A stretch of DNA of 64,000 nt, taken from an uncultured Granulosicoccaceae bacterium (lineage in GTDB: Bacteria > Pseudomonadota > Gammaproteobacteria > Granulosicoccales > Granulosicoccaceae). Of the stretch, positions 18,292 through 51,014 are shown piece after piece (within the stretch, counting starts at the first letter, position 1; every line of letters begins with the position of its first letter). The stretch spans positions 1 to 64,000 of the forward strand of contig CALKXD010000049.1 of assembly GCA_938003855.1 (NCBI GenBank), given 5' to 3'. Below the pieces are notes generated by a model. It had not been told where the DNA came from. It did no database searches and was given only the letters and a program-made list of their open reading frames with translations. The position numbers and the translations under genes are program-made.

Positions 18292-19335
18292 TTAACTGAA
18301 GTCGGTAATGACGGATATGCCAGAGCGTTTGTGCTTGTCAAAGCCGGCCAGTGCATCGATGGATGCCTGCAGGGTCAGTTCTTCGAAGATAAGCTTGTCC
18401 GGCGATAGTTGGCCGTTTTGGATCATCTCGATCATGGTGCCATAGCGGTGTGCCTGCATACCGTGGCTGCCGATGATTTCGAGTTCATGGCCCATCACCA
18501 GATCCATTGGGATCGGTGGCGTACTTTGGTCTCCCAGCATCCATCCCAGTTGAATGTGGCGACCGCGTTTTTTCAGGTTGCGTACCGAGTTGATGCAGGT
18601 GGACTCTATACCCAGTGCGTCTATGGAAACATCAGCGCCGCCATCGGTCAGGGATTTAACGGCCGCGACAATGTCAGCGGTGTCACTTGCGTTGATGGTA
18701 TGTTCAGCGCCGACAGCGCTGGCGAGTTCAAGGCTTGCGGCAGAGATATCTATAGCGATGGGACGCGCCCCCATTGCCCGTGCGATCATGATCGCAGACA
18801 GGCCCACGCCGCCACAACCATGCACCGCAATCCATTGACCGGGGCCAACGCGCCCCTGATCCACCACCGCTCTGAAGGATGTGACAAAGCGGCAGCCGAG
18901 ACTTGCCGCTGTTGCGAAATCCATGTTGTCTGGCAACCCCACCAGGTTGAGATCGGCGTGCTGAACCTCTACATACTGGGCAAAAGATCCCCAATGCGTA
19001 AACCCGGGCTGGAATTGATTGTCGCAAACCTGCTGGTTGCCCGTGTGGCACTGTGCACACGCACCACAACCCCCGACAAACGGGACGGTGACTCTGTCGC
19101 CGCGTTGCCATTGTTTTACATCGCGACCGGTCGCCTCAACGACGCCTGATAACTCGTGACCCGGGACGTGCGGCAATTCAATAACCGGGTCATGGCCCTT
19201 CCAGCCTGAAAAGTCACTTCGGCAAACACCGGATGCTTCAACTTTAACGACGACCCCGTGGTTTTCCGGTGTGGGATCGGGCACAGTCTGCAGGGTAGGG
19301 GCTTCACCGAATCTCTCATAGACGACTGCTTTCAT
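18292..19335 (-). CDS. Zinc-dependent alcohol dehydrogenase (MDR family)
   Basis: 347 residues from the ATG at 19335, which has a GGAG site six bases upstream; a GTG twelve bases earlier is less likely. Catalytic zinc ligands are in CRSDFSGWKGHD and PGHE; the structural zinc site is CGACAQCHTGNQQVC; the NAD(P) fold is GCGGVGLSA. This is a complete medium-chain dehydrogenase, cytoplasmic, oxidising an alcohol or reducing an aldehyde. It is a single gene on the minus strand, with about 465 bases to the next gene upstream. Confidence 0.88.
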   Translation of the reverse strand: MKAVVYERFGEAPTLQTVPDPTPENHGVVVKVEASGVCRSDFSGWKGHDPVIELPHVPGHELSGVVEATGRDVKQWQRGDRVTVPFVGGCGACAQCHTGNQQVCDNQFQPGFTHWGSFAQYVEVQHADLNLVGLPDNMDFATAASLGCRFVTSFRAVVDQGRVGPGQWIAVHGCGGVGLSAIMIARAMGARPIAIDISAASLELASAVGAEHTINASDTADIVAAVKSLTDGGADVSIDALGIESTCINSVRNLKKRGRHIQLGWMLGDQSTPPIPMDLVMGHELEIIGSHGMQAHRYGTMIEMIQNGQLSPDKLIFEELTLQASIDALAGFDKHKRSGISVITDFS

Positions 19336-19622
19336 GATTATCTCCACGGGCGTTCAGGCAGGAGTGGTTGAGTATACGTTAGCGTTGTACGACGGCCAGG
19401 GTTTCGATTCATGGCCGGTAAAGAGCTAAACCGGTCGGTCAATCAACGGTCAATCACAACGTGACATAAATCGGCATCGACCGACTGCCGTAGGAAGTGA
19501 TTTTCTGTTACAGCGTTGGTGGGATCGATTGATTTAAGGTACCAGCATAAAAATTAACCGACAGCACTTTAAGCATAACAGCACGGCAAATTTACGGTAC
19601 AGGCTATTGAGCACATCGTAAG
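19336..19622. other. Intergenic stretch between alcohol dehydrogenase and MITE-like element
   Basis: 287 bases with no gene I can support. It presumably includes the promoter of the minus-strand alcohol dehydrogenase. No tRNA-like or strong hairpin structure is visible. Confidence 0.4.
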
Positions 19623-19784
19623 TAGTGCCCATCCAGAAACAAGCGCTACTGCGTACCACTCAGGCACGCCATCTTTTGCCGACCACAGGTAGTTACTTAA
19701 GAACAACTAAGCGCCTCCCTGTGGTAGGCAAAATCCCACGCACCTGAATGATCCTCGCGACATCCTGTTTCCGGGTAGGCACTA
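19623..19784. mobile_element. MITE-like 162-bp palindromic element, copy 1
   Basis: A non-coding 162-base element bounded by TAGTGCC and GGCACTA. The outer arms are imperfect inverted repeats (TAGTGCCCATCCAGAAACA against TAGTGCCTACCCGGAAACA on the other strand). An inner hairpin has TTTTGCCGACCACAGG on the left and a mildly mutated complement on the right, around CTTAAG. A second copy of the same length lies at 50853-51014 in the opposite orientation, with about nine differences by eye. Both copies end in TA, compatible with TA target duplication, as for IS630/Tc1-type elements; that assignment is inference. It starts 28 bases downstream of the MoxR-like gene. Confidence 0.85.
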
Positions 19785-19812
19785 ATTATATTTTGCAGCA
19801 GTGGCACCATGA

Positions 19813-20859
19813 TTAGTCTTCGTAGAGCAGTACATCGGAAATCAGATTGGCCCAGTCTTTAAACTGCGACAGCGAGAAGAGCTTTTCACCGACGGCCCGG
19901 TACATATCAGAGACCAGCATCACACCCATCTCGCGTTGCGGAAACTGCGAGGCATAGTTAAGAATGTTGCCTAGTGTTGACTCGTACTGAGGTGTTTGTG
20001 CCGCCACAACTGCTTGCCCAACCAGTGACGATGCCAGCGCGTATTGCAGATCGATCGATTGCGGAACGGGGACGTCTTCACCGGCAATAATGGCAGCAAT
20101 ATCGGGCAGGTTATCCATATTGTCTATAAATGCGTTGAGCTCGACGCCGGCGGCATCGCCTACGCAGGCTTGCAGGGCACCGGGTAGTATGGCACTGCCT
20201 GATGCAAATTTCTGCAGGGCGTGGTGAGCAAATTCCCACGAGCGCGGTGTTGGAAAAGCTACCGGGTCCAGCGCCGGATCGAAGTCAAAAAGCAACTCAG
20301 GTCGAAAGCGCAGAAAAGCAATAATGCGCTCATCAATACCTTGTTGATAGGCCCACAGCACCCAGTCGTCGAGGTTGGCGTCAAAGCTGTAGTGGCTGAA
20401 CCGGTTTGCCAATGGTGTTGCCATAGAGTAGGTGACACCCCGATCGCCCTGGCGGTTTCCGGCGGCAAATATGACCCAGCCTTGCGGTACTTGATAGTCG
20501 CCGAGGCAGCGATCCAGAATCAGCTGATAGGCGGCCGCTGATACCGCCGGTGTCGCGGAGGTAATTTCATCGAGGAACAGGATTCCGGCGCTTCCGTGTC
20601 GCTGTGCATCCGGCAGCATACGAGGCACCGCCCACTCCACCATACCGTCAACGCGAAAAGGAATGCCGCGAAGGTCAGTGGGTTCAAGCTGCGACAAACG
20701 AATATCGATTAACGGCACTGAATGACGGGCCGCCACCTGCGCCACCAACTGCGATTTACCGACACCGGGTGGTCCCCAGATCATTACCGGTGTGTGGTGC
20801 CCGTTGAGCGTACTTGAAAACTCGTTTTCTAACACAGACTGCAAATGGATGGGGCGCAT
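19813..20859 (-). CDS. MoxR-type AAA+ ATPase
   Basis: 348 residues. Walker A is GPPGVGKS at about 29-36, Walker B ILFLDEITSA, sensor 1 in FAAGNRQ, and the arginine-finger region in ATPLANRF. This is the AAA_5/MoxR arrangement; such ATPases usually act as chaperones or metal insertases together with a VWA-domain partner encoded next to them. No VWA gene follows here: the downstream side holds only the MITE-like element and then an alcohol dehydrogenase. The partner may be elsewhere or lost. Confidence 0.85.
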   Translation of the reverse strand: MRPIHLQSVLENEFSSTLNGHHTPVMIWGPPGVGKSQLVAQVAARHSVPLIDIRLSQLEPTDLRGIPFRVDGMVEWAVPRMLPDAQRHGSAGILFLDEITSATPAVSAAAYQLILDRCLGDYQVPQGWVIFAAGNRQGDRGVTYSMATPLANRFSHYSFDANLDDWVLWAYQQGIDERIIAFLRFRPELLFDFDPALDPVAFPTPRSWEFAHHALQKFASGSAILPGALQACVGDAAGVELNAFIDNMDNLPDIAAIIAGEDVPVPQSIDLQYALASSLVGQAVVAAQTPQYESTLGNILNYASQFPQREMGVMLVSDMYRAVGEKLFSLSQFKDWANLISDVLLYED

Positions 20860-50187: not shown

Positions 50188-50286
50188 CTACCCCGATGAA
50201 ACAGGGACTGAAGACAGGTGCGGTGGCAACACGGCCAGTGTTGCCAGCGGCGCTATGTTACCTATGAACACACAGGTAAAAAGAAA

Positions 50287-50808
50287 ATGAGTCTACGGAC
50301 AAAAGCGGTGTTTGCTGTATTGGCTATGCTGGTTGCGGGTGGCGAACTGGCATCGGAGGGTACCGATGGGGTTCGCATGTCACTAACCCCTGATAATCTG
50401 GTTGTTGTTCAGGCCGGTGAAGAAGTCTACAAAGCGCAATGCGCCTCTTGCCATGGCGCACACCTTGAGGGGCAGCCGGAATGGCGCACCCGCGATGCTA
50501 ACGGGTATCTGCCGGCACCCCCGCATGACGCGACCGGCCACACCTGGCACCACGCCGACGATCTTCTTTTCGAGATCACCAAATACGGCCCGGCCGTGGT
50601 GATCAATGATCAGAGCTACAAAACGCTGATGCCGCGCTTCGAGGGTGTTCTAACCGATAAAGAGATAGTCGCTGTGTTATCGTTTATAAAAAATACCTGG
50701 CCCGAAGAGCAGCGCAACTGGCAGGACCAAGTCAACGGGACGGCCGTCAACGGGATAAAAGAAGTTCCGGCAGAAAAACCCTCGTTGCTTGAGAAGCTGC
50801 TGAAATAA
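50287..50808 (+). CDS. Class I-type monohaem cytochrome c
   Basis: 173 residues from the ATG at 50287. The signal peptide (KAVFAVLAMLVAGGELA) is followed by one haem-binding CASCH motif (52-56) and a probable Met ligand in LMPRFEG. The tail (KEVPAEKPSLLEKLLK) is amphipathic. It is a periplasmic electron carrier. It follows the multicopper oxidase by 99 bases, as in several copper-resistance clusters, so it may be its electron donor or partner. Confidence 0.87.
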   Translation: MSLRTKAVFAVLAMLVAGGELASEGTDGVRMSLTPDNLVVVQAGEEVYKAQCASCHGAHLEGQPEWRTRDANGYLPAPPHDATGHTWHHADDLLFEITKYGPAVVINDQSYKTLMPRFEGVLTDKEIVAVLSFIKNTWPEEQRNWQDQVNGTAVNGIKEVPAEKPSLLEKLLK

Positions 50809-50852: not shown

Positions 50853-51014
50853 TAGTGCCTGTCCGGAAACAGGGTGTCGCGAGGATCATTCAGGTGCGTC
50901 AGATTTTGCCGACCACAGGTAGGCGCTTAGTTGTTCTTAAGTAACTACCTTTGGTCGGTAAAAGATGGCGTGCCTGAGTGGTACGCAGTAGCGCTTGTTT
51001 CTGGATGGGCACTA
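50853..51014. mobile_element. MITE-like 162-bp palindromic element, copy 2
   Basis: Reverse-complement copy of the element at 19623-19784, same length. The inner stem is better kept here: left arm TTTTGCCGACCACAGGTAG (50904-50922), right arm CTACCTTTGGTCGGTAAAA (50945-50963), with the loop holding CTTAAG. Ends are TAGTGCC and GGCACTA. It lies in the gap between the cytochrome c and methyltransferase genes and ends 57 bases before the latter. It has no coding capacity and would need a transposase in trans. Confidence 0.85.

Follow-up and report, generated by a model that had tools for sequence, protein, structure and literature searches.

The 64,000-nucleotide stretch of DNA analyzed here, referred to below as the window, contains two 162-bp repeats in opposite orientation, and the locus raises the question of what these repeats are, where exactly they end, and what could have moved them. 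Copy 1 was delimited by an earlier note at positions 19623-19784 of the forward strand, and copy 2 lies at positions 50853-51014, inverted relative to copy 1 (reverse strand). The two had been described as reverse complements with about nine differences, and a gapless alignment gave exactly nine, at element positions 56, 64, 95, 104, 114, 115, 141, 153, and 154; a search with copy 1 as the query retrieved copy 2 with an E-value of 1.5e-67, which is not a chance match. Their description as near-palindromes was likewise confirmed: each copy folds as a near-complete hairpin, with a folding z-score of -5.6 for copy 1 (RNA parameters) and -6.1 for copy 2 (DNA parameters), and none of 200 shuffled sequences was equally stable.

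Copy 1 is overlapped by six open reading frames of 22-45 aa, none of which is a notable coding frame. Both of its neighbors are on the reverse strand: it lies downstream of the AAA-ATPase gene (19813-20859), at a distance of 28 bp, and upstream of the gene for a zinc-type alcohol dehydrogenase (18292-19347). Copy 2 occupies the gap between a cytochrome c gene (50218-50808, forward strand), which ends 44 bp before it, and a methyltransferase gene on the forward strand, which follows immediately. The methyltransferase open reading frame, as listed, starts inside copy 2 (50931-51014); its true start may be situated further in, or copy 2 may supply its leader. Inversion of the 31 kb between the two oppositely oriented copies, an idea of the earlier note, would be conceivable.

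These repeats form a large family in the genome to which the window belongs (G000; 6.84 Mb in 312 contigs, 98% complete). A search with copy 1 listed 45 matches with 91-100% identity, nearly all of full length. The 20-base element end, with up to three mismatches, was found 151 times, compared with no matches for the reversed control, and the element centre was found 84 times. The earlier note had allowed for the case that no further copies exist; at least 82 copies were delimited in this genome from 76 stretches. Full flanks are available for 74 of these 82 copies, and both ends are recognisable in 67 of the 74. Comparison of the flanks among the loci yielded only six cross-matches, indicating that the sites are mostly unrelated. 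Thus, the 162-bp repeats are copies of a MITE: they are short, carry no gene, have terminal inverted repeats, are accompanied by a target duplication, and occupy many unrelated sites.

The near-identity of the two window copies had been taken as a sign of recent mobility, a view that the whole family does not bear out. The 60 intact ungapped copies of this genome differ pairwise by 7.9% on average (1.3-19.6%) and from their consensus by 4.5% on average. A mean pairwise difference of 7.9% implies that most copies are not very recent, no pair being closer than 1.3%, and a transposase was not found in this genome either (see below). Two copies, near positions 8178-8374 of contig C238 and 25115-25311 of contig C84 (L149 and L187), are 197 bp long and have their centre repeated at a 35-bp spacing. 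Two pairs of loci, L134 and L159 (contigs C168 and C262) and L143 and L161 (contigs C210 and C264), share 98-99% identity in one flank only, starting at the element, which suggests segmental duplication, recombination bounded by the element, or assembly joins; about 217 bp are absent from the version of the gene fragment at L159.

Alignment of the G000 copies demonstrated that conservation stops on both sides of the element at a TA(GC|AT)TA hexamer; the flanking hexamers belong to the conserved block, which therefore exceeds 162 bp. The duplicated target is a 6-bp TANNTA site, mostly TAGCTA or TAATTA, and the element proper, from GTGCC to GGCAC, is 158 bp long. The TA duplication proposed earlier was therefore corrected to a 6-bp one, the terminal TA being the inner third of the hexamer; the 162-bp limits include the inner TA of both target hexamers. 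With the boundary set by direct-repeat analysis of the flanking hexamers, copy 1 proper extends over 19625-19782 (158 bp, forward strand) between the hexamers TAAGTA (19619-19624, forward strand) and TAATTA (19783-19788, forward strand), and copy 2 proper over 50855-51012 (158 bp, reverse strand). The left terminal inverted repeat of copy 1, TAGTGCCCATCCAGAAACA (19623-19641, forward strand), is common to ISNCY-family insertion sequences, and its right counterpart is at 19766-19784 (reverse strand).

Palindromic hexamers cannot tell direct from inverted flanks, and only informative central dinucleotides were counted. By this count, the flanks are direct in four and inverted in one of the 67 copies of G000, direct in 14 and inverted in two of 38 elements from named genomes (neither in eight; a few pairings are doubtful), and direct in ten and inverted in none of 55 copies from two genomes of the same genus, G012 and G013 (neither in ten). 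Pooled, 28 of 31 informative flanks are direct (p = 5e-6). The inverted pair of the G000 copy (L153) counts against a duplicated target, as do the unequal hexamers of copy 1, the left of which we regard as a duplicate that has diverged from the right. Simple TA duplication was ruled out by the hexamer conservation together with the direct flank repeats, and a longer terminal inverted repeat in place of a target duplication by the 28 direct versus three inverted flanks. Targeting of sequences resembling the element's own end was also rejected: flanks that closely match the terminal repeat mostly proved to be genuine tandem copies, the exceptions being L171 and L122, which look decayed.

At five places in G000, two MITE copies follow each other head to tail at a 164-bp period. 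This period equals 158 + 6, as would be expected if one copy inserted into the hexamer that a previous one had left behind. As for empty sites, proposed earlier as a check, three orthologous neighborhoods of copy 1 are indeed free of the element; the intergenic DNA there, however, is non-collinear with that of the window. At ten loci that match the gene preceding copy 2, no complete pair of element ends is present either, and none of the loci compared provided an exact empty site.

The earlier note also suggested looking for a transposase gene flanked by such ends, and genes of this kind were found outside G000. The terminal repeat TAGTGCCYATCCRGAAACA has exact matches in at least 72 stretches of named genomes, with about seven expected by chance in a collection of that size according to our own arithmetic. 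Hits that lack a second end, in Paenibacillus and in Hymenobacter (at most a far-off candidate with five mismatches), may be such chance matches. Inverted pairs of ends about 1.68 kb apart were identified in Vreelandella rituensis (L040), an uncultured Cellvibrionales bacterium (L043), and Halomonas (L109). These partner insertion sequences are about 1.67-1.69 kb long and encode a transposase of 446-465 aa with a DDE_Tnp_1 domain, and their NF033593 (ISNCY family transposase) scores are 429.6, 415.9, and 448.1 bits, respectively, at a cut-off of 325. The same cut-off is exceeded in two of the 14 genomes of the window's genus, G010 and G012, and insertion sequences with MITE-type ends were found within the genus as well (L193 and L194). 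The flanking hexamers are TAGCTA on both sides in Vreelandella, TAATTT on both sides in Halomonas, and TAGTTA on both sides of L193 in G012, directly before which is the end of a related element; those of L043 and L194 are unequal.

The homology of the MITE to these insertion sequences is terminal, covering 17-23 bp in L040, L043, and L109 and 12-17 bp per end in L193 and L194; no homology of its interior to any of the five was found. Lack of interior homology argues against derivation by internal deletion of an insertion sequence, which was ruled out on this ground, and does not argue against the MITE being moved by the same enzyme. Thus, the MITE took over the ends of an insertion sequence, rather than being a shortened copy of one. 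Within the 312 contigs of G000, no NF033593-type transposase was found; many of these contigs end in or near the repeats, so an ISNCY copy may be missing from the assembly.

On a plasmid of Marinobacter sp. M3C (L335), on a plasmid of Rhizobium sp. T136 (L336), and at L193 in G012, an ISNCY element adjoins the end of another element with a single TANNTA between them, and in the two plasmids the junction is a perfect palindrome, GGGCAC-TAGCTA-GTGCCC. Both insertion into an earlier target hexamer and a tandem-dimer intermediate would fit this adjacency. The NF033593-type elements presumably correspond to the ISDol1 group of ISfinder, which the 6-bp duplication fits. The name ISNCY stands for "not characterized yet", and in the available text of PMC10132070 the IS1202 group has been moved from it to its own family; the duplications given there for IS1202 are of 3-5 bp or 16-28 bp, or none, so the 6-bp duplication observed here fits another ISNCY group.

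The best explanation of these data, to which we assign a probability of about 0.92, is that the MITE was supplied in trans with an ISNCY (NF033593) DDE transposase, was inserted at TANNTA sites, and is now present as drifting copies. The proposed mechanism would comprise the following steps: (i) an insertion sequence of about 1.67-1.69 kb would provide the ISNCY DDE transposase in trans, (ii) the transposase would recognise the common terminal repeat GTGCCYATCCRGAAACA, (iii) the 158-bp element would enter TANNTA, with a preference for TAGCTA or TAATTA, and the hexamer would be duplicated, (iv) the two good target hexamers left by the insertion would permit further insertion alongside, giving head-to-tail arrays with the 164-bp period, and (v) the copies would gather between convergent genes by losses in genes and promoters, with stop codons in the hexamers helping. 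That the ISNCY transposase moves the MITE is suggested by comparison of sequences, and most copies are probably old and drifting.

Among the 40 genomes searched, G000 included, element matches were detected in 12, all from the window's genus, where they are present in 12 of 14 genomes; the search gave no match in the other 11 genomes of the family or in the 15 of the class. Elements sharing the interior of the window element are nevertheless present in MAGs that carry the labels Alteromonadaceae and Oceanospirillaceae. Those from Sulfidibacter, Desulfobacterota, and Spongiibacteraceae have the common ends and different interiors: the elements of Sulfidibacter corallicola (L054, L078, L088), Desulfobacteraceae and Geobacter (L103, L107), and Spongiibacteraceae (L048, L075, L083) combine the same ends and TANNTA-type flanks with unrelated inner palindromes. 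It seems that one type of transposase yielded several MITE families independently, and the patchy distribution suggests either transfer from lineage to lineage or repeated capture. No match to the element was found in the plasmid and phage collections searched at the DNA level, and none to the terminal repeat in viral contigs.

To describe the placement of the copies relative to genes, we used a gene caller of the codon-usage type, which placed 43 of the 67 intact G000 copies and left 24 unplaced. Among the placed copies, 25 are located between convergent, 16 between tandem, and two between divergent genes. The background in 464 kb of this genome is 61 convergent gaps of 366 (p = 1.5e-8 for the enrichment), and only two of the 22 TAGCTA or TAATTA sites outside genes in the same 464 kb are in convergent gaps (p = 1.4e-4). 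A cruder method based on open reading frames gave 30 convergent, 25 tandem, and no divergent positions for 55 copies. The bias is weaker in G012 and G013 (p = 0.013 against the G000 gaps), where 45 copies were placed, 15 convergent, 23 tandem, and seven divergent, with ten unplaced. Many copies are abutted by a stop codon in or across the hexamer. The simplest reason for the excess in convergent gaps is that insertions hitting genes or promoters have been lost.

Such placement is also known for REPs, which according to the available text of PMC3733652 are found mainly in convergent or unidirectional gene gaps, and the repeats could be imagined as REP/BIME-type palindromes moved by a RAYT (Y1) transposase, being palindromic, intergenic, paired, and present in high copy number. 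However, REPs are described in the same source as sequences of 20-40 bp tied to RAYTs of the IS200/IS605 type, whereas the element of the window has 158 bp, terminal repeats of 17-19 bp, and a 6-bp target duplication, the latter two in common with an element encoding a DDE transposase. A REP/BIME origin is thus extremely improbable.

In a set of 19 elements drawn from several lineages, both bases of a pair have changed without loss of pairing in 49 cells of the hairpin, compared with a shuffled mean of 15.7 (none of 500 shuffles reached 49), and 95.5% of the cells are paired; the structure was derived from these same 19 sequences, so that the sliding control favours it, and the shuffle control ignores relatedness. 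Most alike between species is the apical segment GTTAYTTAnGAAnnACTAARCGCC (19692-19716 of copy 1, forward strand; element positions 70-94), which is shared by three bacterial families, a likeness that a bare MITE would not need and that counts against the preferred explanation. The same is true of its lower variability within G000: rare variants per column per copy among the 60 intact copies amount to 0.015 in the apical segment, 0.022 in the terminal repeats, 0.0209 in the stems, and 0.0233 in the unpaired interior.

The between-species covariation, the conserved apical segment, and the excess of copies between convergent genes would suit a conserved structured RNA or a 3'-end regulatory hairpin that is selected at each site and was mobile only in the past. 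The smaller RNAalifold set of pairs, which includes the target hexamers, points the same way in G000, with 51 G.U versus 28 A.C cells. This signal of RNA-level selection in G000 was overruled by the full stem outside the hexamers, with 64 G.U and 70 A.C cells in the 60 copies. Moreover, stems vary nearly as much as unpaired positions, compensation outside the hexamers within G000 is weak (19 versus 13.5 shuffled, a value reached by 41 of 1000 shuffles), and the elements duplicate their target. An Rfam scan of the whole window gave no family match, and no terminator-like or promoter-like sites were found around copy 1. Hence we consider selection for an RNA or hairpin at each site very unlikely. 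From the earlier suggestion of a conserved RNA gene with compensatory changes, the covariation between species is retained, whereas within G000 the variants are spread almost evenly and G.U is about as frequent as A.C.

Under the preferred reading of a MITE moved by an ISNCY transposase, individual copies in G000 drift almost freely, and pairing is kept over longer times. Template switching can correct imperfect palindromes. The long-term pairing is perhaps explained by such switching, or by amplification of well-folded copies only. Doubtful, though less so than a site-selected RNA, is the idea that the interior is a functional module, whose hairpin with its near-invariant apical segment (GTTAYTTAnGAATGACTAARCGCC) was kept by compensation during spread between families of marine Gammaproteobacteria and would act at amplification, for instance as a fold in transposition or replication or as a site for a host protein, and would not be needed after landing.

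Thus, the window element itself is real, of an ordinary kind, and well resolved, being a MITE in high copy number whose boundaries are exactly known and whose type of partner has been identified. What is unusual about it is the interior, conserved and covarying, that several bacterial families have in common. A repeat that is among the most abundant in these uncultured marine bacteria thereby gains a probable origin, an exact boundary, a duplicated target, and a candidate transposase type. The covariation among species, as opposed to near-neutral drift in one genome, raises the question of whether the fold of a MITE is selected during transposition and not after it, and the excess in convergent gaps provides a usable example of selection shaping where elements persist.

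Comparison with known systems revealed both common and distinct features. No description of an ISNCY-derived MITE was found in the available parts of the literature on ISNCY elements and bacterial MITEs. The named relatives of the partner elements by annotation, ISRsp17 and ISRm17, and their kin share with the MITE the terminal repeat GTGCCC(A/G)TCCA(G/T)AAAC and TANNTA-type flanks; for a copy of ISRsp17 on a plasmid of Sinorhizobium, the duplication seems to be 7 bp long (TAGTCTA). ISNCY elements on the Rhizobium and Marinobacter plasmids resemble the MITE arrays in being in tandem with one hexamer between copies. Unlike the window element, these insertion sequences carry a transposase of 446-465 aa, and only the outermost base pairs are common to both. 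RUP of pneumococcus and Correia/NEMIS of Neisseria are, as far as PMC2229807 is available, similarly short, coding-free or nearly so, and TA-ended, with a strong stem-loop. RUP is thought there to be mobilised in trans, the source being an insertion sequence whose ends match its own; it is associated with IS630 and with TA sites, whereas the window MITE has an ISNCY partner and a 6-bp target. In the accessible portions of PMC6382973 and PMC11448079, MITEAba12 with ISAba12 and the 187-nt Microcystis MITE with ISL3 are likewise matched to a proposed parent, and each is present in a number of related species or strains; the parents differ from that proposed here, and in the Microcystis MITE the ends are 9 nt and the duplication is 8 nt long. 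MITEPye1 of Paracoccus yeei (PMC11578231, available text) also has terminal and direct repeats, a long stem-loop, and a parent inferred by its ends, but that parent is of the IS1182 type and there are one to three copies per chromosome, compared with more than 80 copies and an ISNCY parent for the MITE of the window.
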